30,533 nucleotides of DNA from a virus, in IMG/VR virus record IMGVR_UViG_3300021339_000085, positions 1 through 30,533 of that record, one strand, 5' to 3'. The position numbers were made by a program, and so were the translations under genes. Shown one piece after another: positions 5,027 through 28,213 of this stretch. The stretch's first letter is position 1, and each line of letters begins with the position of its first letter. The notes beneath the pieces are model-generated. The model was given only the letters and a program-made list of their open reading frames with translations, ran no database searches and had not been told where the DNA came from.

Positions 5027-5380
5027 ATGAACCAGGCTGAATACAGAATAGGAAACTATCTGCAGGATGTGGATGGCGAAGAATTTAAAATTGGTGGCGA
5101 GACCATTGACGACCCCAGGCAGTTTGATTGCTTCGCCCCTATTCCTCTAAACGAAACGTGGTTAAAGCGCTTTGGATTTGTGCGTCCTGATGCATTCTAC
5201 TCTCTACCGATGGATCAAGATCTCTCCTACAAGTTCGGAGAAATGAACGATGTATGGACTGTCTTTATTAAGCAAACAGGTCGTTGGCCGTTTTGGCATT
5301 GCGGGAGGACAGAGTATGTCCATGAAGTTCAAAACTTATATTTCTTTCTTACTCACAAGGAACTCGAAGTGAAAGTATAG
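5027..5380 (+). CDS. Conserved phage protein of unknown function
   Basis: A 117-residue protein from ATG 5027 (MNQAEYRIGNYLQD). The frame continues upstream to a TTG at 4964, but the recognisable pattern begins at 5027. The sequence follows a type frequent in Bacteroidetes phages: an opening RIGNYLQDVDGEEFKI, a middle IPLNETWLKRFGF, and an ending VHEVQNLYFFLTHKEL. I know of no biochemical function for it. It is probably a small soluble beta-rich protein. It lies in the early cluster between two gaps of about 60-90 bases. Confidence 0.72.
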   Translation: MNQAEYRIGNYLQDVDGEEFKIGGETIDDPRQFDCFAPIPLNETWLKRFGFVRPDAFYSLPMDQDLSYKFGEMNDVWTVFIKQTGRWPFWHCGRTEYVHEVQNLYFFLTHKELEVKV

Positions 5381-5439
5381 TAACGGTGTACCAGAATCCA
5401 CCAATGTGTGTCATAAACCCCTCGAACCCTTAACACAGC

Positions 5440-5646
5440 ATGAAAGCTAAACCCGCAACCCTCAACGCAAAGGACATAGCTCTCATCAAAATCGCCGTTC
5501 AGGATATCAGCCTTCCATTGAACCGTGACTACCGAAAGAAGCTCCGGGATCTGGAGAAGGAGATCGCGAAGCTGAAAAAGGAAAAGGCGGTAATGCCGAA
5601 TCGCGCCATTATAGAACACGAAGACTTTATCCCCGATTCCCTATGA
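5440..5646 (+). CDS. Small coiled-coil protein, unknown
   Basis: A 68-residue, highly charged protein. Residues about 28-50 (NRDYRKKLRDLEKEIAKLKKEK) are a likely coiled coil with heptad-like Leu/Ile spacing. It is preceded by a 59-base gap and followed by an ATGA overlap with the next gene. No homologous family is recognised. An antisense frame over the same bases has unlikely composition and was set aside. Confidence 0.6.
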   Translation: MKAKPATLNAKDIALIKIAVQDISLPLNRDYRKKLRDLEKEIAKLKKEKAVMPNRAIIEHEDFIPDSL

Positions 5647-5912
5647 ACGAACACTTAGAATTTCTCGCAGCCTCCACGATGATGGGAAACCTCATGCATC
5701 GCAGGGCAATCATTATTCAAACCCTGCAGAAGCCACAGCACAAAGGAGACATCATGCTCACCGGAGAGCTCACCCGCATCCAGAACGACATCAACGAACT
5801 GGACAAGGTCATGACCAGCACAGGGCTCAACATCCTGGCAGGGTTCACAGCGCGGTATAACTGCCAGTTCAAGTACCTGCTCATGAAGCCCAAGATCAGT
5901 ACAGAAGGATGA
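5643..5912 (+). CDS. Small helical protein, unknown
   Basis: An 89-residue protein that is mostly helical, with no signal peptide or clear membrane segment. The most regular part is about 40-60 (TGELTRIQNDINELDKVM), a likely coiled coil. It overlaps the preceding and following genes as ATGA, so it is part of one translation-coupled string leading into the HNH gene. The function is unknown. Confidence 0.62.
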   Translation: MNEHLEFLAASTMMGNLMHRRAIIIQTLQKPQHKGDIMLTGELTRIQNDINELDKVMTSTGLNILAGFTARYNCQFKYLLMKPKISTEG

Positions 5913-6283
5913 ACGTCCAGCGTGTAAAGCGACCATGGGAAAGGAAAGGTAAGTGGGGCGTGAAATACGCGCCCGATCCTTATTACCAATCATCGACATG
6001 GAAGGCCTTAGTGAAAAGCTTTCGCCTCACCAGTACCTTATGGGATTCGGTTACCCTGGTGAGAGTAGCGCAGCCCGGGCCTAACGTGGTTAAGATCAGC
6101 AACACGCTCTGTTTCGAATGCTACACCAAAGACCAGGTGATCAAGCCAGGACGACAAACAGACCATATCGTCACAAGGAAGGCTGGAGGCAAGGATGAGC
6201 ACAGCAACCTACAGACCCTATGTGATCACCATCATGCAAGTAAGTCAGCCAACGAAGGAAAGGTAAAGAAAGGGAAATGCTAA
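5909..6283 (+). CDS. HNH endonuclease
   Basis: A 124-residue HNH nuclease. The zinc ligands are C68-x2-C71 (LCFEC) and C105-x2-H108 (LCDHH). The beta-beta-alpha metal motif is seen as D85-H86-I (TDHI), N100 (SNLQTLC) and the final His of HHH (H109). In HK97-like phages a small HNH protein close to the terminase often assists cleavage of packaged DNA. Here it lies about 460 bases before the small terminase, so that role is plausible. A homing-type nuclease is the alternative. The N-terminal 50 residues are basic and probably contact DNA. The start overlaps upstream as ATGA. Confidence 0.92.
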   Translation: MNVQRVKRPWERKGKWGVKYAPDPYYQSSTWKALVKSFRLTSTLWDSVTLVRVAQPGPNVVKISNTLCFECYTKDQVIKPGRQTDHIVTRKAGGKDEHSNLQTLCDHHHASKSANEGKVKKGKC

Positions 6284-6413
6284 CTTTGATAGTAGAAGGT
6301 TCCCCGTGGAACTCAAATATTTAGTAAGGGATAAGCCCCATAACAGATTGATTTCAACCGTCATAAGAGCCGACACTATATATATAGAGTGAACAAACGA
6401 ACCAACCCCAAAC
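6281..6413 (+). promoter_or_regulatory. Probable early/late boundary region
   Basis: A 130-base gap in an otherwise tightly packed operon. It contains TAACTTTG at 6281-6288, an exact TAnnTTTG -7 match (without an obvious -33 TTG). It also has a small inverted repeat GTTCC-ccgt-GGAAC at 6299-6312 and a perfect 12-base palindrome CTATATATATAG at 6376-6387, about 27 bases before the next ATG. These are what a late promoter with an operator could look like, but each element alone is weak. Confidence 0.35.
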
Positions 6414-6656
6414 ATGGAATCTGAAGAGAAAACCCCAACCCCCAGTCCTACGCCAGCCCAGCAGGTAGTGATAGACTACGTCGATAAGAACATCGACCTG
6501 CTAGTCAATCACTTCAATGACTACTGCACCAAGTACAAGACCCCATTCGTACCATTAGAGTACATCGTGGCGTGTGCAACCATACAGAAGTCTGCTTTCA
6601 GGACGGGCGTAACCAACGCCAACGCAGGCGACGAGCCCCAACCGGAGGGAGGGTAG
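6414..6656 (+). CDS. Small acidic protein before the terminase
   Basis: An 80-residue protein. The N-terminus is Pro/Thr/Ser rich (TPTPSPTP, about 7-14), followed by a helical region about 18-60 (VVIDYVDKNIDLLVNHFNDY). The tail is acidic and glycine rich (GDEPQPEGG). No family is recognised. It stands between the boundary region and the packaging genes and may be the first gene of the late operon. The DNA encoding its last residues is G-rich and runs into the gap proposed below as a packaging-site candidate. Confidence 0.62.
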   Translation: MESEEKTPTPSPTPAQQVVIDYVDKNIDLLVNHFNDYCTKYKTPFVPLEYIVACATIQKSAFRTGVTNANAGDEPQPEGG

Positions 6657-6745
6657 GTCTGCGACTTTTTTCGGATTGGACGGAGACCACGCTCGACCAA
6701 AATTTTCCTCTCTGCGATTTTACCATGAGGGGGTATCGATAGAAT
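6657..6745. other. Gap before small terminase; candidate packaging (cos/pac) region
   Basis: Eighty-nine bases without a gene directly upstream of the small terminase. It holds two TCTGCGA repeats (6658-6664 and 6711-6717), each followed by a T-rich stretch, plus an inverted GGTCT/AGACC pair (6656-6660, 6684-6688). A G-rich run (GGAGGGAGGG) ends the preceding gene. HK97-type phages commonly carry their packaging site next to this gene. The assignment is inference from position and repeats. Confidence 0.3.
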
Positions 6746-7120
6746 ATGGCAAAACAGACTAAAAACGCAGATTTTAACTACTACCTGACGCAGGATGGGC
6801 GGAATGTGCTTGAATACATCAAGAAACACTGTGAGGCGATGGGGCTGTGGCATGAAGAATACCACCTGGAGGCATCGATGCTGGCCAATGTGTTTGTGCT
6901 GTATTGTGAGGCAGCCTATTCCTGCAATCAACCAAACGGAACGTTTCAAAAAGTTGGCAACGGCGGCTATAAACAGGTCTCCGTCGAGCTTACGATCATG
7001 GACAAAATGCACGACAAGATATTGAAGCACGCGCCCAAGTTCGGACTGAACCCAGCGGACCTTGAGAAGCACTTCGCCGGATTGAAAAAGGCGGAGAAGA
7101 AACCGGACTTCGCAGAGTGA
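6746..7120 (+). CDS. terS: Phage terminase small subunit, P27 family
   Basis: A 124-residue DNA-recognition subunit of the packaging motor. It would bind the packaging site and deliver the genome to the large subunit. The P27-type pattern is visible in the second half: VELTIMDKMHDKILKHAPKFG followed by LNPADLEKH, with an N-terminal helical region about 15-50. Length is normal for the family. The following gene starts with GTG inside its stop codon (GTGA), so the two terminase subunits are translationally coupled. Confidence 0.88.
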   Translation: MAKQTKNADFNYYLTQDGRNVLEYIKKHCEAMGLWHEEYHLEASMLANVFVLYCEAAYSCNQPNGTFQKVGNGGYKQVSVELTIMDKMHDKILKHAPKFGLNPADLEKHFAGLKKAEKKPDFAE

Positions 7121-8913
7121 AAGCCACCCTCATCAAAAACGTTCTGACCCCCGTCGACACCGTAACGGAAGCGGAGAAATATGCGCACTGGGTACTCGAT
7201 CCGGCAAACGCGATCTGTACCGGCAGGCTTATCAAACTAGCGGCGAAGCGGTTCCTTTCCGACTTACAACGGACGGATATCTATTTCGATCCGGTGGAAG
7301 CAATAAGCATGATCAACTTCTGCGAAAAGAATTGCAACCTCTGGCAGGGCCGTTGGCGTGGTGAACCGATGCACTTTGAGCCATGGATGCGGTTTATTTT
7401 CGAACAGGTATTCGGATGGTTCAACATGGATGAAACACGACGGATCAATAAAATATTCGTCCAAATAGCCAAGAAAAACGCAAAGACAACTTTGCTCGCG
7501 ATGCTGGCAATCTTCCGGCTCTTCAGGGATAAGAGAGTACAAACACCAGATATTTTTGTAGGCGCCAACAACGAAGAGCAGGCGAAACTTTGTGTGAATA
7601 TCACCGGGCAGATCATTGAAGTTTCCCCGCGACTGGCCGCATTCGTGGAGGATGAAAGGGTGAAACTTTTCAAGTATGACGGGAAGATCAGGGGCATTGC
7701 ACACCTGGAGCGCAAGGGATCGATCAAGGCAATGTCCAAAGAGACAGGAGACAAGACAAGTAAAACAGCGGGGGGTAAACAAGGTGTGTTTTCATCCATG
7801 GGAATCATCGATGAGTACGGGCTGGCTGCGGATGCAAACCTACTCTCTGCCATACAATCCTCGCAGGCCGCAGCGGAGGAACCATTGATGGCCGTGATCA
7901 CAACGGCAGGTTTTAACCTGGACGGCCCGTGCTATACGAATACTCGCCGGACGGGGATTGAAGTTCTGGAAGGAAATGGATTTGATGACGGGTACCTACC
8001 ATTCATTTATGAGCTCGACGCGCCAATAAAAGAGGATGGAAAGCCAGAAGAGATTACAGTCAGCTGGCTGCAAGAACACCCGGAAGTCTGGCAGCAGTGC
8101 AACCCTAATTTAGATGTAAGCACACAGAAATCTTTTCTTCGAAAGGAACTTCAGGAAGCAAAGAACGAAGGCGGTTCCCGCGCCGTCGACGTACTCACGC
8201 TGAACTTCAATGTATGGTGTGGTGGTTCTGAAATCTGGGTGCCAAAAGAAACGTGGGACGGAAACACCCACGGAATAAAAATCGAAGAGTTGCAAAGTGT
8301 TTACGAATGCTTTGCCGGCATCGATATTATCTCCGGCCTATCATTAAACGCCCTGATTTTACTCTTTCCGAACATTCGTGACAACACCCACGCGCTACTT
8401 CCCTTCTTTTGGATGCCCGAGGGGAAGGTACTGCCGGATAAAAACGATATGAGATTTGATTTCTCAAATTTTGTGAAGCAAGGATGGATCATGACAACCC
8501 CTGGAAACGCCATCGAAAACGAGATGATTTTCAAGAGAATTGAGAGCGAATTGAAGAAATATCGGGTGCATTCGGGCGCTTTCCTGAATTTATTGGAGAA
8601 TCACGACATACTTCAAGGGCTGATGAAAACGCAGACCTGGAATCCCATCTCTAAAGGCTATCAGGGTCAAAGCACACCAACAAAAGCATGGGAGGAGCTT
8701 TTGGTAAACCATCGTATCGAACATTTTGGAAACCCGGTCCTCTCCTGGATGAACTCTAACTGCATGGTGCTTCGAAAGGACAGCGAGATCATGCTGCAAC
8801 GATCCGGGGGAAGGATCGCCGGGATCTCGGCCTCGATCAATGCACTGGCACAGTACTTAACAATCGAATCTACACGCGATCCACAGGACGCGGTAATAGG
8901 AAGCTGGAAGTAA
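7117..8913 (+). CDS. terL: Phage terminase large subunit, HK97 type
   Basis: A 598-residue ATPase-nuclease that drives DNA into the prohead. The start is a GTG overlapping the small-subunit stop. Walker A is A118-KKNAKT124 (relatives have RKNGKS) and Walker B is IIDE at 230-233, so the ATPase looks intact. The nuclease domain starts near residue 398 with D403 in FAGIDII, the first metal-binding Asp. The segment where relatives usually have YDPWN (here HSGAFLN, about 485-491) and the late KIDG motif (here RIAG, A568) both lack Asp. The landmark GNPVLSWMNSN is at 538-548. The C-terminus ends DAVIGSWK. Fourteen bases separate it from the glycosyltransferase-like gene. Confidence 0.95.
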   Translation: MKATLIKNVLTPVDTVTEAEKYAHWVLDPANAICTGRLIKLAAKRFLSDLQRTDIYFDPVEAISMINFCEKNCNLWQGRWRGEPMHFEPWMRFIFEQVFGWFNMDETRRINKIFVQIAKKNAKTTLLAMLAIFRLFRDKRVQTPDIFVGANNEEQAKLCVNITGQIIEVSPRLAAFVEDERVKLFKYDGKIRGIAHLERKGSIKAMSKETGDKTSKTAGGKQGVFSSMGIIDEYGLAADANLLSAIQSSQAAAEEPLMAVITTAGFNLDGPCYTNTRRTGIEVLEGNGFDDGYLPFIYELDAPIKEDGKPEEITVSWLQEHPEVWQQCNPNLDVSTQKSFLRKELQEAKNEGGSRAVDVLTLNFNVWCGGSEIWVPKETWDGNTHGIKIEELQSVYECFAGIDIISGLSLNALILLFPNIRDNTHALLPFFWMPEGKVLPDKNDMRFDFSNFVKQGWIMTTPGNAIENEMIFKRIESELKKYRVHSGAFLNLLENHDILQGLMKTQTWNPISKGYQGQSTPTKAWEELLVNHRIEHFGNPVLSWMNSNCMVLRKDSEIMLQRSGGRIAGISASINALAQYLTIESTRDPQDAVIGSWK

Positions 8914-8927
8914 AACAAAATCCATAA

Positions 8928-9620
8928 ATGAACCCCGTCGTAGTCATCGCCTCTCATCTTCGCTCCTCGATCACCCGGCAGAACATTCAAAGCCTGCTCC
9001 GTCAGTCGGTCGTTCCTGAGATCGTTCTCGTTGTCTCCGTCCCAGATGAGTACGAGCGGTGGAAAAAGGAATTTCCAATCATCCATGTTTTGAAGGAACG
9101 TAATTGGCCGCTGGGTAAGAAATGGCAGGCTGGCGTCGATCATGCCCGAAAGCTGAACGCGGACCCCATGATTATCACCGGCTCGGACGATATCCTTGGA
9201 GTTGACTTCGTAAAAAACGCCTGCAGTCTTTCCCGGCAACATGATTTCATTGGCTTGCAGGATTGGAGCGTGCTACACGAGAGTTTCCTGTACTCGATCA
9301 CCTACAACGCGAAGATACCGCTCGGCGCCGGAAGGGTTTACTCCAACGGCCTTTTAGAGGCAATGAATTGGATCGTGTTCAACACCCGCATAAACCGGCA
9401 TCTGGACGACCAAGGCTATCACAACACAAGGAGATTATGCAGGCCCATGCTGATTGTCCGCGATGCAGCAGCGCAAGGATTACACGTTGTATCCGTAAAG
9501 GGACCGTGGGTGATGATGAACAGATTCGTGTCGATGCTCCAGCATCCCAACTGTACAGTGAGGTCGAAAGTGGAGGCAATAGAAGTTCAAAACCTGATAG
9601 GATTTAAACCCATCGTCTGA
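8928..9620 (+). CDS. GT-A glycosyltransferase-like protein (first copy)
   Basis: A 230-residue protein with a GT-A/family-2-like fold: a Rossmann-type start (VVVIASHLRS), NWPLGKK at 59-65, and G85-S86-D87-D88 as the DxD-type nucleotide-sugar/metal motif at the end of a hydrophobic strand (MIITGSDD). Further on are GAGR at 133-136, LEAMNW at 143-148 and NRHLDD at 156-161. The last four motifs recur in order in the gene at 15859, so the two are paralogues. The sugar and acceptor are unknown. It lies within the late operon between terminase and portal, and its stop overlaps the next start as TGATG. This placement suggests modification of virion proteins. Host surface-glycan modification is an alternative. 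Confidence 0.8.
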   Translation: MNPVVVIASHLRSSITRQNIQSLLRQSVVPEIVLVVSVPDEYERWKKEFPIIHVLKERNWPLGKKWQAGVDHARKLNADPMIITGSDDILGVDFVKNACSLSRQHDFIGLQDWSVLHESFLYSITYNAKIPLGAGRVYSNGLLEAMNWIVFNTRINRHLDDQGYHNTRRLCRPMLIVRDAAAQGLHVVSVKGPWVMMNRFVSMLQHPNCTVRSKVEAIEVQNLIGFKPIV

Positions 9621-11182
9621 TGTGCAGAATAGCTGGCATTCTTCACAAGCATAACAATTCAGATTGGTCCCAACTGGCCGCAATGCGCGACCATCAAAGA
9701 CCCGGAGGACCGGACGCGTCCGGGACATGGACCGATGATCACTGCGGCCTTGCCCACAACCGCCTTTCAATTCTTGACCTATCGGAAAACGGAAGCCAAC
9801 CGATGGAGTCCGAGAACTGGGTACTGTGCTACAACGGAGAGATTTACAACCATCTCCAGCTCAGAAAACAGATCAACCGTCAGTGGAAGGGACATTCCGA
9901 TACCGAAACTTTACTTTACCTGATAGAAACCTATGGACTGGAATCTGCACTTGATAAAATCGAGGGCATGTACGCCTTTGGTGCGTATAACAAAGGAAGC
10001 AAAGACCTTTACCTCGTCACCGATCAGCTATCTATCAAGCCGCTTTATTACGCTCTTTCAAACGGGCGTCTCCTTTTTGCGAGTTCTATTGCTGCCATAG
10101 CGCTACAGCTTTCGAAACTTCAACTGAACAAACAGGCGCTGACGGATTACCTGGCCCTCGGTTCAACTTATGAACCGTTGTTCCAGGACATCAACAAGGT
10201 CCACCCACGCACGATTGTGAGGGTCACAAAGGACTTGTTTGTCACGGAGTCGAAGTATCACCCTTTCGATCATTACAGGGCTTACACCGAACAGGATTGC
10301 ATCGAAGCCGTGGTAAACTCCATCGAGTCGGTGAGGCTTTCGGATGTGCCGTTGTTCATATTTTTATCCGGGGGTATTGATAGCAGCGTAGTGGCCGGCT
10401 GTCTTCCTGGTGTGAACGCGGTGCATCTTAACTCCCCGGAAGAAAGGTACGCCCAACAGGCCGCGGACAAATTCAACACGCAATTATCCTTTATCGACCC
10501 AGCAGAAGAAAATGCGGAGGATTGCTTAAAGGACTACGCTTTCCAGTCCGGGGACTGCTCGATGGCAGCCTTGATCCCTTACATCACATCAAAGAAAGCA
10601 AGCCGGTTCGGCAAGGTGGCCATTTCGGCGAACGGAGCGGATGAGATCTTTGTAGGCTATGACCGGATAAAAGCAAGCACAACAGATGCGCAGATAAACC
10701 ACATCTTCCGCCGGCAATTCTACGACGAAAGCTCATGGAGAGAGATCGTTGCAAGCCACAGCCGCATGACGGAGTTGGATACTTACCTCTCCTACGACCT
10801 GAACAAAACACTGGACTATGCCTCGATGTGCTTCGGGCTTGAGGTCCGGGTACCGTTCCTGAACCGTGAAGTGATCCGGGCGGCAATGTGGCTCCCGCGC
10901 GAAAGCCATGTAAACGGCCTGGGAAATAAGTCCATCCTCAAGAAATGGCTGTTGTCGAAAGGATTCAGTGAGCATTTTGTAAACAGGCAGAAACTCGGAT
11001 TTTCGCTACATACCGAACCATTAGGATACACGAAACTGCAAGCTGATGGAGTTAAGTTGCTCTCTGACAATTTTGGTATCAGTCCGAAGTTTCAGCGAAA
11101 CTCTCGCGACGATCGATACTTTCGCATGAGCGCGGCTGCATTCTATTGCTGGCACCAGGTGTGGGGTACGCGACTCAGCTAA
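9620..11182 (+). CDS. Asparagine-synthetase-like glutamine amidotransferase
   Basis: A 520-residue AsnB-family enzyme. The class II glutaminase domain (about 1-185) starts MCRIAG with nucleophile C2 and keeps R48, N72-G73-E74 (YNGEIYN) and D94 (SDTET). The synthetase domain has the PP-loop S240-GGIDSS246 for ATP, the motif SANGADEIF at 316-324, DYASMCFGLEVRVPFL at about 389-404 and a KLGFS near 468. Family members transfer ammonia to an adenylated carboxylate. In E. coli AsnB the equivalent of N318 is a Glu important for catalysis, so a substrate other than aspartate, for instance a uronic acid, is possible. It is coupled by TGATG to the glycosyltransferase. It is slightly shorter than E. coli AsnB and looks intact. 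A plain asparagine supply role is the alternative. Confidence 0.9.
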   Translation: MCRIAGILHKHNNSDWSQLAAMRDHQRPGGPDASGTWTDDHCGLAHNRLSILDLSENGSQPMESENWVLCYNGEIYNHLQLRKQINRQWKGHSDTETLLYLIETYGLESALDKIEGMYAFGAYNKGSKDLYLVTDQLSIKPLYYALSNGRLLFASSIAAIALQLSKLQLNKQALTDYLALGSTYEPLFQDINKVHPRTIVRVTKDLFVTESKYHPFDHYRAYTEQDCIEAVVNSIESVRLSDVPLFIFLSGGIDSSVVAGCLPGVNAVHLNSPEERYAQQAADKFNTQLSFIDPAEENAEDCLKDYAFQSGDCSMAALIPYITSKKASRFGKVAISANGADEIFVGYDRIKASTTDAQINHIFRRQFYDESSWREIVASHSRMTELDTYLSYDLNKTLDYASMCFGLEVRVPFLNREVIRAAMWLPRESHVNGLGNKSILKKWLLSKGFSEHFVNRQKLGFSLHTEPLGYTKLQADGVKLLSDNFGISPKFQRNSRDDRYFRMSAAAFYCWHQVWGTRLS

Positions 11183-11435
11183 ACAACAAGGAGGCGTAAG
11201 TGGTCGGGCGGTCCGATTTTCTATACCGCCTGCTTGCTGTAATTTCCTTCGCCTTTATCAAAGCACTTCTTTTTACCCTGAAACTCTCGTAATTCTTACA
11301 CGGGGGTTCAAAAGGGAACGTCACTCGCCATTCATCAGCAGCATCCTCGAAGGCTTGTTCATTTGTTTTCGACCCAACCAGGCAACCATCGAAAATCTCC
11401 ATGAACACATCGAAAGCTCTCTTTCTTCTGTTCAA
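11175..11435 (-). CDS. Small minus-strand protein inside the late operon
   Basis: An 86-residue reading frame opposite to all neighbours, filling the 329-base space between the amidotransferase and the portal. Its composition is protein-like (AFDVFMEIFDGCLVGSKTNEQAFEDAADEW, then KNYESFRVKR) and resembles short Bacteroidetes phage proteins of unknown role. The start is uncertain: TTG at 11435 is the first candidate, and ATG at 11402 would cut into the conserved-looking part. A TACTTTTG box on the minus strand (11452-11459) fits an own promoter. It converges with the amidotransferase, overlapping by 8 bases. It has the features of an independently expressed moron gene. Confidence 0.5.
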   Translation of the reverse strand: MNRRKRAFDVFMEIFDGCLVGSKTNEQAFEDAADEWRVTFPFEPPCKNYESFRVKRSALIKAKEITASRRYRKSDRPTTYASLLFS

Positions 11436-11451
11436 TTCAAACGGGGTTTAG

Positions 11452-11459
11452 CAAAAGTA
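11452..11459 (-). promoter_or_regulatory. Candidate -7 promoter box TACTTTTG (minus strand)
   Basis: An exact TAnnTTTG match read on the minus strand, with the TTG candidate start of the minus-strand gene beginning 17 bases after its last base. No TTG was found at the -33 position. It would give the gene its own transcription against the direction of the late operon. Confidence 0.35.
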
Positions 11460-11511
11460 TGTAAAATTATTACACCTACTGAGAGCCGTATTGCTTTTAG
11501 TTCGCACTCAC

Positions 11512-12810
11512 ATGGCGGACGCGAGGCTTCAAAGCTGGGTGAAGAGAAACGTTTGGAATTGGGCAACCAAGTCCGTCGGACCCACCTACGATCTCAAAGG
11601 AACCGACGCGCGTGAAGGCGTTTACGGATATAATGACGACTTCACCAACGAAGTTGTTACCGAACGCAGAGCGCACCAGCTCTCCACTGTCTACTCCTGC
11701 ATTAACGTTCGCGCACGCACAATCGCATCGCTCCCGATAAACATCATCCGGGAAAAGAACGGAAAGAAAGAATCCCTCACAGACCACGCAGCGTATTATC
11801 CCCTCGCCCAGCAGCCGAACAGCTACATGAGTTCGGCCAATATGTTTTTAACCTCCATGATCCATTCAGATTCATGGGGTAACGCAATCATTGGGATTAG
11901 CCGCGACGGTTTTGAGGATGTAAAGAGCCTGGATCTGATCATGCCCGGAGATTGGGATGTGAAGGTCTCGGATGGCCAAGCCTGGTATAAGGTAAGAGGT
12001 GAAATGTACCGCAGTTCCGACATCCTACACTTTAGGTGGTGGGCCTTGGACGGACTCTGCGGCATTTCCCCCATCCGGCAGAACGCCATGGAAATGGGTA
12101 AAGCCTTCCAGGCTGAACGCTACGCCGGCAAGAACATGCAACAGGTGGCGCCCGGCTTCCTTCGCTACGAAGGGGAAATGCATCCTACCCAGCGTGCTGA
12201 GAATCAGAAGTCCTGGGAAACCGACCGCTTCGCCGGCCGCACGCCGATCCTCTCCGGAAAATGGGGGTATGAAAAAACGATGCTATCCCCGTCGGACATT
12301 CAGTACATCGATTCGATGGACCTCAGTGATCAGCATATCTGCGGCATCTTCCAGGTGCCTCCCGTCTTTCTGCAAAACTACCGCCGTGCAACCTGGAAGA
12401 ACTCTGAAGAGTGCGACCTGATCTATGCAAAGCACACCATCACCCCGATCATTCGCATCATCGAGCAGGAGTGTAACATGAAGCTTTTCCGGGAGCGCGA
12501 GAAGAAAAACACTTATGTAAAGTTCAACCTGAACGGCCTCCTGAGAGGGGATATCGCGGCCCGGGCTGCATTCTACACAGCCATGCGCAACGTGGGTGGA
12601 ATCAATGGCAACGAGGTTAGAAGCTTCGAGGATATGAATGCATACGAGGGCGGAGACATCTTCACGCTCCAGTCTGCAAACTGTCCAGCGGATCAACTTC
12701 GCGAGTTCTACAAAAGTAAAGTGGCACCCGTGCCTGCGACCGAAGGAGAGAAGGAGAAGAACGGCAAGCAAAAACAACACAACGGAGTACATCACGAACT
12801 GTACAACTGA
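11512..12810 (+). CDS. Phage portal protein, HK97 family
   Basis: A 432-residue portal subunit that forms the dodecameric DNA channel at the capsid vertex. I chose ATG 11512 (MADARLQSW). The frame also extends to a TTG at 11491. Recognisable family segments are TVYSCINVRARTIASLPINI (about 59-78), a stem/wing region DSWGNAIIGISRDG, HFRWWALDGLCGISPI, and the clip-to-crown part FQVPPVFLQNYRRATWKNSEE followed by KHTITPIIRIIEQE. The last 20 residues are Lys/Gln rich and probably disordered. The stop overlaps the protease start as TGATG. The order portal, protease, capsid is the classic HK97 arrangement. Confidence 0.93.
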   Translation: MADARLQSWVKRNVWNWATKSVGPTYDLKGTDAREGVYGYNDDFTNEVVTERRAHQLSTVYSCINVRARTIASLPINIIREKNGKKESLTDHAAYYPLAQQPNSYMSSANMFLTSMIHSDSWGNAIIGISRDGFEDVKSLDLIMPGDWDVKVSDGQAWYKVRGEMYRSSDILHFRWWALDGLCGISPIRQNAMEMGKAFQAERYAGKNMQQVAPGFLRYEGEMHPTQRAENQKSWETDRFAGRTPILSGKWGYEKTMLSPSDIQYIDSMDLSDQHICGIFQVPPVFLQNYRRATWKNSEECDLIYAKHTITPIIRIIEQECNMKLFREREKKNTYVKFNLNGLLRGDIAARAAFYTAMRNVGGINGNEVRSFEDMNAYEGGDIFTLQSANCPADQLREFYKSKVAPVPATEGEKEKNGKQKQHNGVHHELYN

Positions 12811-13574
12811 TGGAAGAGACCAAATACATCCAAAATCACTTCGAGCTTTTATTCGATAAGAAGAAAGACGAGGAGAAAGTCCGCGAAACAAGGACCCTTG
12901 ATTTTGTGATCAATGTGGAGGTTAAAGATCGCGGCAAGGATTGGCTGAATTACGACAACTGGCAGATTGAGAATTACAACGCGAACCCAATTGTCGGCTA
13001 CCAGCACAATGTATACGGTGACAACATGTGTAATCCCCCAGATCCCGATGATGTGATCGGCCAAGGGAAAGCATTCCTGGGTGAACATAACGGAAAAAGA
13101 GCATTGATCTCCTCAGTCACCTTCGAGCCGAAGGAGATGAATGAGAAGGCAGACAAGGTTTTCAATAAGGTTTTGAACGGGACGCTTCGGGCGGCATCGG
13201 TTGGCATCGCTCCGACCGGAAAGTTCGAATACGATAACCCGAAACAAGGCGAATGGGGCGGCATCTCCGATTGGGACCTGCGCAAGTGGCCAGGGCAAGA
13301 GCTATTGGAATGGTCGGTTGTAAATATTCCAATGAACCAAGAATCCGTCCGGAGATCATTAAAAAATCACACAAACGCCGCGCTCCTGTTTGTTCAAAAT
13401 CTGATGCAGGATTACGGCATCAAAGACATTAAACAGATGAGCGTTCAGCAGATACTCGACATCATTGAAAAGAAACATGTGAGCCCTCCGATGGAGCAGC
13501 TCGAAAAAGAACTGTCTGGGCCCGACCCCGACTTTGAGAAGTACAAGTTGAGATTAAAACAAATTCAAAAATGA
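12810..13574 (+). CDS. HK97-family prohead protease
   Basis: A 254-residue maturation protease (peptidase U35/S78 type) that would cut the capsid protein delta domain during assembly. The catalytic residues are visible as H66 in IVGYQHN and S130 in TLRAASVG. The surrounding patterns FVINVEVKDRGKDWL, RALISSVTFEP and LLEWSVVNIPMN are typical of the fold. The C-terminal 70 residues (VQQILDIIEKKH...) are helical and may bind scaffold or be self-cleaved. Its stop overlaps the capsid gene start as ATGA, as expected for coordinated production. Confidence 0.92.
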   Translation: MEETKYIQNHFELLFDKKKDEEKVRETRTLDFVINVEVKDRGKDWLNYDNWQIENYNANPIVGYQHNVYGDNMCNPPDPDDVIGQGKAFLGEHNGKRALISSVTFEPKEMNEKADKVFNKVLNGTLRAASVGIAPTGKFEYDNPKQGEWGGISDWDLRKWPGQELLEWSVVNIPMNQESVRRSLKNHTNAALLFVQNLMQDYGIKDIKQMSVQQILDIIEKKHVSPPMEQLEKELSGPDPDFEKYKLRLKQIQK

Positions 13575-14941
13575 AAGATGAATTGAAAGAGAAACGGGAG
13601 GAAAGGGCCGATAAAGAAAAGTCCCTTAACCTCCTTCTCGATAAGGCCGCGAAGGAGCAACTTTCGGCTGATGAAAAAAAACAGTTCGATGATCTTGAAA
13701 CAGAGACCGCAGAACTGGACATTGAGATCAAGCGCCTGGAAAGCATCGAGGCACGCTCGAAGAAAAGAGCCGAGCGGGACATCGAAGCAGGCCGTGGCGC
13801 ACTTCCTGGCGCTGTCCAGGATAATGCTGCCGAAGAGAAAGAACTGTTGGCCATAGCAAGCAAGTTCAGCCTGTCGGCAGCGATGAAAGAGATCGCTGTC
13901 GGCAAGAAGAGCCATGTGACCGGTGTAGCCGCCGAAGTTTACCAGATCGCACAGAAAGAGGCGAAGGAAGCTGAGACGGAAATCACCGGTATGATTGCCA
14001 TACCGCAAAAGTTTATTCAGATCGGAAAACGCAAGGCGCTCACAGTTGGCACCGAGGGCGCTGATGTCGTTTTCACTGAGTATGGCGGAAAGGTAATCCC
14101 GTTCCTCAATCCGGAGCCTATCGCGGAAAAACTCGGAGTAACATTCCTGCAAGGTTTGCAAGGCAACGTTCAGTGGCCTCGTGAAACAGGTGAGCTCGCC
14201 TTCTCCTTCGAGACGGAAACGGGCGATGTGGATGAAATGACACCCACCTATGACAACGTGTCGATTTCACCAAAGCGATTCGGTGGTTATATCGATGTAA
14301 CACTTCAGATGCTACGTCAATCACCCGCGATCTCAGAAGGATACGTGCGTCGCAAGATCGACACAAGGCTTGAGATCACCATTGACGAGCAAATATTCAA
14401 TGGAAGTGGCGCAGGCAACCAAACTACAGGCCTGTTTAACATGGGCGGCGTGAATGTGCTTTCTCTCGGTTCAGGCTCTGCCAACGATATGACCTATCGT
14501 GCGCTCCTCTCCATGAAGCGCGATGCCAAGGCCGCCAATGCGAGAAAAGGCAAACCCGGCTGGGCTACCAACGCATACGGTGAGTACGCGCTGTTAATGA
14601 CTCCGCTCCAGACGAACGGCGTGGAGGGCAACTTCATCCTGAAGCCCGACTATAACGGTCGCCTCTTCGCCGAGCCTTTCCTCACGTCTCAGATCATTCC
14701 ATCCAACTTCAGTGAAGGCGGACAGACTGATCTGTGCGGTCTGGCATACTCGACAAACTGGGGCGGACTGTTCACTGGATTCTGGGGTGGGGTTGATCTG
14801 ACGATCGACAACATCACTCAGAAGCTCGGCGGTAAGGTTCGCTGGATTGTTAACGCATTCATGGACGTGGATGTGGAGCAGCCGCTGGAGTTCTCAATCT
14901 GTAAGGATTGGGATGCAACAGATCTTCCTGCGACCACCTAA
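13571..14941 (+). CDS. Major capsid protein, HK97 fold, with delta domain
   Basis: A 456-residue capsid subunit. Residues about 1-75 are highly charged and helical (DELKEKREERADKEKSL, later LETETAELDIEIKRLE), the coiled-coil scaffolding delta domain that the upstream protease should remove. The shell domain follows from about residue 130, with the HK97-type segments ETGELAFSFETETGDVDE, SISPKRFGGYIDVTLQML and IDTRLEITIDEQIFNGSG. The C-terminal strand region ends KVRWIVNAFMDVDVEQPLEFSICKD. No separate scaffold gene was seen, consistent with the fused delta domain. A strong hairpin follows the stop. Confidence 0.95.
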   Translation: MKDELKEKREERADKEKSLNLLLDKAAKEQLSADEKKQFDDLETETAELDIEIKRLESIEARSKKRAERDIEAGRGALPGAVQDNAAEEKELLAIASKFSLSAAMKEIAVGKKSHVTGVAAEVYQIAQKEAKEAETEITGMIAIPQKFIQIGKRKALTVGTEGADVVFTEYGGKVIPFLNPEPIAEKLGVTFLQGLQGNVQWPRETGELAFSFETETGDVDEMTPTYDNVSISPKRFGGYIDVTLQMLRQSPAISEGYVRRKIDTRLEITIDEQIFNGSGAGNQTTGLFNMGGVNVLSLGSGSANDMTYRALLSMKRDAKAANARKGKPGWATNAYGEYALLMTPLQTNGVEGNFILKPDYNGRLFAEPFLTSQIIPSNFSEGGQTDLCGLAYSTNWGGLFTGFWGGVDLTIDNITQKLGGKVRWIVNAFMDVDVEQPLEFSICKDWDATDLPATT

Positions 14942-14963
14942 TCAGGTGATGTGATCTGGAAAA

Positions 14964-14992
14964 AATGGGGAGGCCGTAGATACCTCCCCATT
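14964..14992 (+). terminator. Perfect 10-bp hairpin after the capsid gene
   Basis: AATGGGGAGG (14964-14973), a 9-base loop, and CCTCCCCATT (14983-14992) form a perfect stem, 23 bases after the capsid stop. There is no T-run after it on the + strand, but an A-run before it would make it a better terminator for the minus strand. It may act as a partial terminator or as a 3' mRNA stabiliser for the abundant capsid message. Confidence 0.6.
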
Positions 14993-15029
14993 CTGATAAG
15001 AAGTCCAAACAACAAAAAGTAAAAGATAT

Positions 15030-15236
15030 ATGGAAGTAATAGCAAAAAGAGCCGTCTTGATCCGGCAGGACCTGAAGGAAGGCAAAAGAGTCGACGTGAG
15101 GACCGTCAAGGGAAAAAAAATCAACCTCACAGAAGAGGAGGCGATCAAATTCTGGGGTGTCCTGGACCTGTCCGACGAGCAGAAGAAAAAGCTCAACACA
15201 ATCGCCAAGCGCGACGGCTACAAGCGGAGGGTTTAA
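15030..15236 (+). CDS. Small basic protein downstream of capsid
   Basis: A 68-residue basic protein. A small beta part (about 1-32, VDVRTVKGKKINLT) precedes a helical tail (EEEAIKFWGVLDLSDEQKKKLNTIAK). Short proteins of this type often sit between capsid and connector genes in Bacteroidetes siphophages, and their function is not known to me. It is the first gene after the capsid hairpin and is 3 bases from the connector gene. A minor head or head-completion protein is possible. Confidence 0.65.
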   Translation: MEVIAKRAVLIRQDLKEGKRVDVRTVKGKKINLTEEEAIKFWGVLDLSDEQKKKLNTIAKRDGYKRRV

Positions 15237-15239
15237 GCG

Positions 15240-15872
15240 ATGATCCTGTACAGTCGTTTAACCGAGCTTCCAGATGGCGAACCTGTTTCCCTAGAGGAGG
15301 CAAAGGTCCATCTGGAACTCGCTGACGACTCGAAGGATGACTTCATTGAAGCGCTGATAAAGACAGCGCGGAGAATGTGCGAAGGATATGCGGGCCTGAG
15401 TTTCATCACCCAGGAGCGCGAGGTTTCAATGGATTACTTTCCATGTAACACCCCTCAAAATCCTTATGCGGAGATCAATGTGCCCTACGGACCGATTCAA
15501 CAGATCGAGGTCACGTATGTCGACACCAATGGGGATGAACAAACCCTGGTCGACGGCACCGGCTTCAAACTTCTGGCAGGCGGAGTACCCAGAATAGTAC
15601 CGCTCAATGAAAGTGGAGATATCGGTTCATGGCCGTCGACAAAGAATGTTCCGGGATGCATCACAGTATCCTACACGACAGGCTTTGACGATGTGAGCGG
15701 AGAGGCGTTACCGCCAGAAGCCAAAACAGCCATACTACTGCAGGTGGGATCGCTCTTTGAAAATCGACAGGACGAAGTAATAGGCTCAACAGGTAGTGTA
15801 GCCGCAGAGATCAACATGAACTCAAAGGCGATACTGGACAACATAAAGGTTTACTGGAATGCAAACTATTAA
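15240..15872 (+). CDS. Head-tail connector protein (gp6 / phiE125 gp8-like)
   Basis: A 210-residue connector that would form the ring below the portal. The N-terminal helical part carries the family-typical PVSLEEAKVHLEL...DSKDDFIEALIKTARRMCEGYAGLSF (about 15-57). The middle is a beta domain with PYGPIQQIEVTYVDTNGDEQ and GCITVSYTTGF, and the C-terminal helix has PPEAKTAILLQVGSLFENR (about 162-180). Length and order after the capsid fit the HK97 gp6 / phiE125 gp8 group. Its 3' end overlaps the second glycosyltransferase-like gene by 14 bases. Confidence 0.85.
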   Translation: MILYSRLTELPDGEPVSLEEAKVHLELADDSKDDFIEALIKTARRMCEGYAGLSFITQEREVSMDYFPCNTPQNPYAEINVPYGPIQQIEVTYVDTNGDEQTLVDGTGFKLLAGGVPRIVPLNESGDIGSWPSTKNVPGCITVSYTTGFDDVSGEALPPEAKTAILLQVGSLFENRQDEVIGSTGSVAAEINMNSKAILDNIKVYWNANY

Positions 15873-16593
15873 GCCTATTAAGCTTCTCGTATACCTGGCT
15901 GTATGGAAGCGGCCCGAGATCACCAAGCTCTGTTTCGCTGGCATCAAACGGCTCAGGAAGCATCCGCGCTTTGACATTGACGCACTCGCTGTGATCAGCG
16001 AAGAGTCGATGATCCCGCTTTGCGAAAAGTATGACGTGAAGTGGGTGATGAGCGACAACAAGCCTTTAGGCAGAAAGAAAAACAACGGCCTTTTAGCAGC
16101 AAGCAAACTGGGGTTCGATTACCTGATGGAGATCGGAAGTGACGACCTGGTTTTAAACGAGCTGCTCGACTGGTATTGCCCGATGGTCGACGCCGGTGAG
16201 CTGTTCTTTGGAATCAGGGATATCGCCTACCTGGAAAGCGACACGGGTGCTTGTAGGAGACTGATCAGTAAGGCAACGTATGGCGCCGGCAGGATGATCC
16301 ACCGCAGTGTGCTTGAAAGAATGAACTGGAAACTATGGAAGGATGAACTGAACAGAGGACTGGATAACAACAGCGTGTTTAATCTGATGCGCCAGAAGGT
16401 CCAGTACAAAGTAATTGCACCAAAGGAGTTTCCCGGCGTGATCGACGTGAAGAGTGATGAAAACATTTGGAGGTTCGACTACTTCCTTGGAGTGGAGTAC
16501 GATAAGAACGAGCTGTTCAAACGGCTGTCGAAGCAAGAGGTGGCAATGATCGAGTCCTATGTTACAGAGCCAGAAGCGATTCAGTCAGCTTGA
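15859..16593 (+). CDS. GT-A glycosyltransferase-like protein (second copy)
   Basis: A 244-residue GT-A-like protein, paralogous to the one at 8928. Shared motifs in order are NKPLGRKK (67-74), G93-S94-D95-D96 after the hydrophobic strand DYLMEI, FFGIRD (116-121), GAGR (142-145), VLERMNW (151-157), LNRGLDNN (164-171) and a late DVKSDENIWRF. The SDD is the expected nucleotide-sugar/metal motif. It overlaps the connector by 14 bases and the head-closure gene by 35 bases, so it is embedded in the head-completion cluster and must be expressed with it. The acceptor is unknown. Glycosylation of a capsid, connector or tail protein is my preferred reading. Confidence 0.8.
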   Translation: MQTIKPIKLLVYLAVWKRPEITKLCFAGIKRLRKHPRFDIDALAVISEESMIPLCEKYDVKWVMSDNKPLGRKKNNGLLAASKLGFDYLMEIGSDDLVLNELLDWYCPMVDAGELFFGIRDIAYLESDTGACRRLISKATYGAGRMIHRSVLERMNWKLWKDELNRGLDNNSVFNLMRQKVQYKVIAPKEFPGVIDVKSDENIWRFDYFLGVEYDKNELFKRLSKQEVAMIESYVTEPEAIQSA

Positions 16594-27283: not shown

Positions 27284-28213
27284 ATGCGAATTGTCGTTCT
27301 ATTTTTATTCCTGTCCAACATCTGCTTTGCGCAAGGGCTCCTGCGGCGCACGAAGGCCGACTATCCAAGGTCGCTGAATTTTACCAGCGTTGCCGCAACG
27401 ACAAGAACCGTAAACTGGACCGCTACCAACGGGGCGACCAACTACATTTTGGAACGGGCTACCGCTTCGGACTATTCGGGGTCGACGCAAATCTACTCAG
27501 GGTCCAATACCACCTTTAACGATTCCGGCCTTATCTCCGGAACGCTTTACTATTACCGTGTCAAAGCTCAGAAGACCGGACTATCCGATTCCGACTGGAT
27601 GAATACATTCATTTACCCATTTACCGCCGCGTATTACTATGGCACTTCACTCGTCCTTGGAACGGGCGCGTCCCCCTCATCAAACCGGTGGACCACTCTT
27701 TTAAGTACGCGATTCGGAGTGACGGAAAATAACTTCGGCGTGGGCGGTCAATCGATCACTCAGGTGGCGGCCAGTCATTTTACTTATTCAAGTCTTGCAA
27801 CAAAGCCAGGAGGCAACCCCATTCTTTTTCTGGAATGGAGTGCTAACGATTATTTCTATGCTACGCAATCTTACGGAAGCTACGCTGCCGGTTCCGCTCA
27901 ATACGTCACGGACTTCGCTGGACTCATCGCCTACGCGCAAGCTTCGAGGGGATGGGCTAAAGCTGACATCGTTGTGATTGTCGGCTGGGACTTTAAGGGA
28001 AACGCAACGGGGGGCACAAAACAGCAACTGAACATTTACGCCAATGCCATGTCTACGTATTGCTATACCAACGGCATCAAGTACGTCAGGAACTTGCCGG
28101 ACTATACGATGGATGCTGACGGCTTAGGTATTCATCCAGACAATGCGGGGCATTTGGCTATAACTGATTACCTCGAACAACAATTGGAATTGATTAACTT
28201 TTACGCACCATGA
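27284..28213 (+). CDS. Secreted-type SGNH hydrolase with FN3 domain, tail-associated
   Basis: A 309-residue protein. Signal peptide 1-16 ends FA|QG. An FN3-like domain covers about 30-108 (SLNFTSVAATTRTVNWT ... GTLYYYRVKAQKTG). The SGNH part follows: S122 in YYGTSLV (block I), N150 with GVGG (block II), N188 in WSAND (block III), and D279/H284 in DGLGIHPDNAGH (block V, with two more residues between Asp and His than the usual DxxH). Such esterases remove acetyl or other acyl groups from polysaccharides. Standing among fibre genes, it could deacetylate the host capsule or O-antigen during adsorption. It starts 3 bases after the fibre gene and overlaps the next gene as ATGA. Confidence 0.82.
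   Translation: MRIVVLFLFLSNICFAQGLLRRTKADYPRSLNFTSVAATTRTVNWTATNGATNYILERATASDYSGSTQIYSGSNTTFNDSGLISGTLYYYRVKAQKTGLSDSDWMNTFIYPFTAAYYYGTSLVLGTGASPSSNRWTTLLSTRFGVTENNFGVGGQSITQVAASHFTYSSLATKPGGNPILFLEWSANDYFYATQSYGSYAAGSAQYVTDFAGLIAYAQASRGWAKADIVVIVGWDFKGNATGGTKQQLNIYANAMSTYCYTNGIKYVRNLPDYTMDADGLGIHPDNAGHLAITDYLEQQLELINFYAP

Follow-up and report, generated by a model that had tools for sequence, protein, structure and literature searches.

The stretch of DNA analysed here, referred to as the window, is a whole IMG/VR virus record of 30,533 bases without host genome. It carries, between its terminase and portal genes, a pair of genes for a soluble-looking glycosyltransferase (GT1) and an AsnB-type amidotransferase (AsnB). 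That the genes and their pairing are real is near certain. We give a probability of about 0.5 to the reading that the pair forms the centre of a sugar-modification cassette, serving the glutamine-dependent amidation or amidination of a sugar which glycosyltransferases put on a virion protein. To our knowledge glycosylation of phage particles has been found in just a few lineages, and we know of no earlier example in which the particle bears an amidated or amidinated sugar; a literature search found no description of the GT1-AsnB pair. The ingredients are of known kinds; their combination, the slot and the amidotransferase exchange described below appear to be new. They outline an uncultured phage group which reserves a site between its terminase and portal genes for sugar-tailoring enzymes that can be exchanged, and which has a partner glycosyltransferase beside the capsid gene. 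A built-in amidotransferase would imply that these phages adjust the charge on their surface sugars, and the cassette could be a marker for glycosylated virions in metagenomes.

Gene layout and the two glycosyltransferases

The window opens with a tyrosine integrase gene (1-1344), by which the phage is read as temperate. It is followed by replication genes, an HNH gene, a putative small terminase gene, the large terminase gene, GT1, AsnB and the portal gene, and after the portal by a protease-like gene and the genes for the major capsid protein, the head-tail connector, the tape measure and the tail (Table 1). Prophage searches with the second glycosyltransferase of the window, GT2, gave just weak partial glycosyltransferase-like matches, whether in 399 genomes from the family to which a Chitinophagaceae MAG belongs or in 396 from across its phylum.

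Table 1. Features of the window bearing on the cassette
Feature	Coordinates	Strand	Evidence and remarks
Terminase large subunit (TerL)	7117-8913	+	PF03354/PF20441; upstream border of the slot
GT1, 230 aa, soluble-looking GT-A-fold glycosyltransferase	8928-9620	+	14-member alignment, AlphaFold2 model, PDB matches
AsnB-type glutamine-dependent amidotransferase, 520 aa	9620-11182	+	Pfam domains, alignment, fold matches
Portal	11512-12810	+	PF04860, 4.9e-75; downstream border of the slot
Major capsid protein	13571-14941	+	PF05065, 1.1e-17; candidate acceptor of the glycosylation system, or its neighbour
Head-tail connector	15240-15872	+	phrog_442, 1.6e-24
GT2, 244 aa, second glycosyltransferase homologue, GSDD motif	15859-16593	+	Homology to GT1

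The ATG of GT1 lies 14 bases past the stop codon of TerL, and the GT1 stop codon (TGA, 9618-9620) shares one base with the AsnB start (ATG, 9620-9622) in a TGATG junction, as the preliminary description had it. The portal reading frame opens at a TTG (11491), the likely start being the ATG at 11512. Between AsnB and portal a small basic open reading frame of 86 aa is found on the minus strand (11175-11435), with a TAnnTTTG Bacteroidota-type promoter element (TACTTTTG) just upstream. Relatives carry directly before the portal a similar gene of 60-90 aa with the pattern AFE...Y.S..SF...R; its strand is minus in L002, L006, L025, L147, L157 and L161 and plus in L009, L024, L037 and L166.

GT1 had been labelled GT-A-like, which holds for its fold and fails at the level of sequence profiles. 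Taken alone, the protein has no match in PHROGs or NCBIfam and none above cut-off in Pfam, reaching 12.5 bits against Glycos_transf_2 (PF00535; gathering cut-off 23.3 bits); matches to the same family with E values up to 1 are found in seven of fourteen GT1 relatives (best 3.8e-5). An AlphaFold2 model built from the fourteen relatives (mean pLDDT 91.4, pTM 0.90) matches GT-A enzymes in the PDB, the fucosyltransferase WrtF being the best (E 1.7e-9), with TarP, RmlT and GalNAc-T2 also present. By its modelled fold GT1 is a GT-A glycosyltransferase. The residues G85, S86, D87 and D88 (GSDD) and D160 are invariant in all 14 members of the alignment; GSDD is the presumable metal-binding DXD-like motif and D160 the presumable catalytic base.

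GT2 has no match in Pfam, PHROG or NCBIfam and is about 31% identical to GT1 over 119 residues. In the window its start overlaps the connector gene by 14 bases, and it is present beside the capsid or connector gene in all twelve cassette siphophages covered past the capsid gene (the window, L002, L006, L007, L015, L019, L021, L024, L025, L029, L034 and L166), its start falling in L025 on the stop codon of the capsid gene. It is likewise found in L142 and L147, which have an empty slot; this suggests that GT2 functions independently of the cassette, which in turn would depend on GT2. GT2 may thus add the first sugar, which the cassette would elaborate.

Pairing, slot and exchange in related phages

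Single-protein scans of viral contigs with GT1 or AsnB of the window gave no match. The family was opened via a scan with TerL, leading to contig L002, and 2.9 million viral contigs were scanned with successively enlarged alignments built from it. The pair is present in 14 other phage contigs, always as one cassette: the T4-like L027 and thirteen siphophage-type contigs (L002, L005, L006, L007, L009, L015, L019, L021, L024, L025, L029, L034, L166), which are distinct, have the flanks of AsnB covered and include the close kin L006 and L015. Identity of the aligned members to the window is 31-44% for GT1 and 37-53% for AsnB, a recurrence well in excess of chance. The two genes usually overlap or lie a few bases apart; a methyltransferase gene, an HNH gene or tailoring enzymes at times intervene. 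No GT1 with covered flanks was found without an amidotransferase (L023 ends at the contig edge) and no member of the AsnB clade with covered flanks without GT1; in the contigs with AsnB only (L008, L036, L037, L038) the contig end falls inside AsnB. Distances between the proteins correlate for GT1 and AsnB with r 0.69 (permutation p<=0.0002), against 0.23 for AsnB and TerL. A comparison of L006 with L015 shows purifying selection on both genes, with dN/dS of 0.15 for GT1 and 0.02 for AsnB. Among the 50,697 phage records of INPHARED there was no isolate with a match to GT1 (queries from the window, L006, L009 and L024), to GT2 or to the WbuX-like protein described below, and AsnB had just distant matches of about 33% identity or less.

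A census of the slot, counting distinct copies on contigs carrying both TerL and portal, found GT1 and AsnB there in eleven contigs (the window, L002, L005, L007, L009, L019, L021, L024, L025, L029, L166). In seven others (L146, L150, L157, L159, L164, L187, L188) a relative of GT1 is accompanied by a WbuX-type protein of 371-377 aa, where AsnB would stand; no contig with TerL and portal has both AsnB and a WbuX-type protein in the slot. Three phages (L006, L015, L034) have a short slot and carry the GT1-AsnB cassette upstream of terL instead, and the slot of L142, L147 and the distant L003 holds no cassette. The idea that the two genes form a unit within the virion operon and co-occur next to terL is borne out: we found no separate copies and no independent homologues outside structural operons, though in three phages the cassette precedes the terminase. 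The assumption of a normally empty slot fits the gaps of about 210-430 bases between TerL and portal in L006, L015, L034 and L142; within this phage group, however, sugar genes are regularly found in the slot.

Six WbuX-type proteins were tested and all match TIGR03573 (N-acetyl sugar amidotransferase) with E values of 6e-43 to 1e-47, at scores of 147-163 bits, which are under the curated cut-off of 203. The WbuX/WbpG/PseA enzymes of this family are N-type ATP pyrophosphatases which add ammonia to a sugar, as AsnB is proposed to do; they share no homology with AsnB across its glutaminase half. Known members convert acetamido into acetamidino groups. They need a separate supply of ammonia; a separate GATase partner was found in none of ten records of WbuX phages. 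As WbuX enzymes use N-acetyl groups and not carboxylates, the exchange leaves the chemistry of AsnB unfixed, and two amidotransferases interchanging in one slot are a testable hint to the substrate of the divergent AsnB clade.

In four of the WbuX phages a conserved protein of 243-250 aa without Pfam match, a candidate GT-B glycosyltransferase by its looks, is encoded between the GT1 relative and WbuX (L150:3639-4370, L157:3578-4321, L159:2664-3416, L164:3084-3827). In L146 (376-3090) an intein seems to be inserted in TerL, which is 904 aa long (KALDINTPIPTPDGWRRMLDIQAGDFVFGDDG...). HNH-type endonuclease genes are found near or inside cassettes (window 5909-6283; L006:11590-11931; L009:2555-2923; L166:3994-4485) and are a possible means of cassette movement between positions.

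AsnB and its probable substrate

AsnB is certainly a two-domain glutamine amidotransferase by its sequence, with an N-terminal Ntn glutaminase (Cys2) and a PP-loop synthetase (SGGIDSS); it matches GATase_6 (4.3e-36), GATase_7 and Asn_synthase (1.6e-33). The window protein has all of the glutaminase residues C2, R48, N72, E74 and D94, the SGGIDSS PP-loop and GADE. C2 and D94 are kept in all 13 phage AsnB, and a reading as a cyclase of the lasso or beta-lactam type is disfavoured by the conserved glutaminase cysteine. Arg48 is replaced by Leu in four of the thirteen (L021:2871-4364, L025:2994-4502, L029:3097-4668, L002:3660-5225) and Glu74 by Cys in three of them (L021, L025, L029), Cys2 and Asp94 being retained; the proteins with these changes may have another ammonia source or an altered glutamine binding.

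The nearest solved folds are the hydroxyamidotransferase TsnB9 (7ylz), itself a tailoring enzyme and not an asparagine synthetase, and E. coli asparagine synthetase B (1ct9), with TM of about 0.73-0.80 and identities of 21-23%. On the substrate side the E. coli enzyme has a Glu (the capital letter in lsgEgsde of 1ct9) where all 13 aligned phage proteins have Asn (position 338); this Glu is Glu348 of E. coli AsnB, required for acyl-adenylate formation from aspartate. Among the best 80 cellular relatives listed this position is Asp in 34 and Glu in 24 (58/80), and Asn is not among the residues listed for it. All 13 phage proteins fall into a single fully supported clade on a long branch, with the best 80 cellular relatives listed all outside; their loci in cellular genome contigs have identities of 35% or less, with weak GT1-profile matches (up to 20.9 bits) in the flanks. 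The Asn in place of the catalytic Glu together with the separate phage clade indicates that AsnB is probably not an asparagine synthetase, and it is probably a divergent amidotransferase for a substrate other than aspartate.

The company which either kind of amidotransferase keeps includes an LpxD-like hexapeptide N-acyltransferase, a PIG-L deacetylase, a methyltransferase and a sugar N-formyltransferase. Hexapeptide transferase and PIG-L occur together in L019 and L166 (with AsnB) and in L187 (with WbuX), L146 has the hexapeptide transferase only, and the WbuX-type L159 has an extra sugar N-formyltransferase (PF18216, 2.4e-10). In L166 the order between TerL and portal is GT1, methyltransferase, hexapeptide transferase, PIG-L and AsnB. 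PIG-L is present in six of 19 records, most cassettes, that of the window included, being without it. In the T4-like L027 the GT1 and AsnB of the clade stand among genes for NeuB, a cytidylyltransferase, a UDP-sugar dehydrogenase, a hexapeptide transferase and PIG-L. This gene company and the amidotransferase exchange are the strongest argument for a sugar as the substrate of AsnB, which we consider very probable, in agreement with the preliminary description.

The sugar cluster of L027 is large (5287-15222), lies within structural genes and also holds a methyltransferase and a glycosyltransferase; its GT1 is fused to a long N-terminal part. Another phage lineage, represented by L181 (9986-13270 of a 54.9 kb contig) and L177, has in a row a distant GT2 relative, a methyltransferase of the same kind, a different AsnB and a hexapeptide transferase.

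A known sugar amidotransferase of AsnB type is WbpS, whose homologue makes a uronamide in the Wbp/Vim pathway of Bacteroidota (PMC7468200). The uronamide enzymes WbpS/WbqG and eps_aminotran_1 (TIGR03108; P. aeruginosa, E. coli O121, P. gingivalis PGN_1234) have the same two-domain architecture as the phage AsnB and are likewise encoded with glycosyltransferase, N-acyltransferase and deacetylase genes; by analogy, a WbpS-like role in the phage would yield a sugar carboxamide. Unlike WbpS, the phage proteins form their own clade and have Asn338, and the window AsnB falls short of TIGR03108 (eps_aminotran_1) with 237.3 bits against a cut-off of 816.9. The accompanying genes also differ, being LpxD-like and PIG-L in the phages and WbpA/B/E/D and VimA/E in the WbpS systems; a phage deacetylase with an N-acyltransferase recalls the LpxC/LpxD and the Bacteroidota VimE/VimA steps as an analogy and not as membership.

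Proposed acceptor of the sugar and alternative readings

In the mechanism we propose, AsnB would draw ammonia from glutamine via Cys2 of its Ntn domain and, with ATP, transfer it onto an activated sugar carbonyl. The simplest product would be a uronamide from the carboxylate of a uronic acid, possibly also an amidine from an N-acyl group. GT1, as a soluble GT-A enzyme, would move the amidated sugar from a nucleotide donor after GT2 had transferred another, probably first, sugar. By its position the cassette should be expressed late. Since the window shows no recognisable sugar-nucleotide enzyme, host nucleotide sugars would be used; as a uronic-acid-forming dehydrogenase is likewise not recognised there, a uronic-acid donor would need to be supplied by the host. 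The likeliest acceptor is a virion protein from the same operon, a part of the proposal held with moderate confidence, since both glycosyltransferases look soluble and their genes lie in the structural operon. Compared with the original interpretation, the unit, the sugar and the conservation of the pair stand; it had missed GT2, the WbuX/PseA-type exchange and the alternative of DNA modification raised by CmoY.

We know of no amidotransferase in the virion glycosylation of mycobacteriophages. The mycobacteriophages Che8 and Rita have phage-encoded glycosyltransferases, and the Che8 capsid carries glycans (Freeman et al. 2023, cited in PMC11256854). In Maravista the glycosyltransferase genes are placed towards the 3' end of the genome, in distinction to the TerL-portal slot described here, for which the glycan is a prediction.

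The same sugar chemistry could instead be directed at an envelope glycan of the host (O-antigen/A-LPS or S-layer), so that an amidated sugar shown by the infected cell or lysogen would block the adsorption of other phages, a reading which is unlikely and still deserves weight. The integrase at the start of the window points to a temperate phage, uronamide surface glycans are made by Bacteroidota with a WbpS/AsnB enzyme (PMC7468200), and the shift of the cassette to a position upstream of terL in L006, L015 and L034 resembles that of serotype-converting genes. However, most copies lie within the structural operon and not by the integrase, no flippase, polymerase or lipid-carrier glycosyltransferase was recognised alongside the two soluble-looking glycosyltransferases, and GT2 remains beside the capsid and connector genes.

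Returning to the virion as target, AsnB could have taken the role of WbuX/PseA, converting an N-acyl amino sugar into an amidine or making an amide unknown among AsnB relatives, with the sugar on head proteins. This would be a new activity of the AsnB family and is rather improbable.

Modification of DNA was examined because a phage AsnB homologue, CmoY, amidates 5-carboxymethylcytosine in DNA (PMC12783734). AsnB would then amidate a carboxylated base, like CmoY with CmoX and CmoA, or GT1 would glycosylate hydroxymethylated DNA. One further CmoY-type cluster retains the glutaminase domain (PMC12783734), and weak matches to the TET-associated glycosyltransferase (TAGT) profile are found in three of 14 GT1 members (best E 0.0078). 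CmoY, however, works with CmoA and CmoX, both not found in the window. CmoA was absent from 15 records with positive controls, an absence which is suggestive at most since many records are fragments; the same 15, many of them fragmentary, have no thymidylate-synthase-type hydroxymethylase, and a C5-methylase is above cut-off in two, weak in one more and absent from the window. Tet_JBP also had no match in the 15 records, where its controls were silent too. The other enzymes of the cassettes are sugar N-acyl editors, and the cassette is in the structural operon. With the known partner enzymes missing, DNA modification is disfavoured and very unlikely.

Just as doubtful is a cytosolic small-molecule pathway with a role in stress or defence, making a thiol- or peptide-sugar conjugate by a bacillithiol-like set of glycosyltransferase, PIG-L and ligase. 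The phage PIG-L has its best match, at 2.9e-14 and below cut-off, in the bacillithiol deacetylase BshB1, and a glycosyltransferase, PIG-L and an amide-forming enzyme mirror BshA/B/C or MshA/B/C. Against it stand the many cassettes lacking PIG-L, that of the window among them, the conserved Cys2, which suggests ammonia rather than an amino acid as the amine, and the place of GT2 beside the capsid gene, which would be left unexplained.

That AsnB is an auxiliary asparagine synthetase supplying Asn in late protein synthesis, with the glycosyltransferase as unrelated cargo, has the slimmest chance of all and is rejected as main reading on Asn338 and the gene company. In its favour, the window protein is narrowly over the TIGR01536 (asparagine synthetase) cut-off of 267.1 bits with 274.4, and L027 has 331.9. 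Against it stand the close relative L005, which is under the cut-off with 264.6, the long branch, phage-only among the matches listed, the constant pairing with GT1 and the exchange with a sugar amidotransferase.

Among the genes further downstream in the window, that at 27284-28213 encodes a protein with an fn3-like domain and weak Hoc-like and GDSL-like matches, possibly a virion decoration or a tail enzyme.
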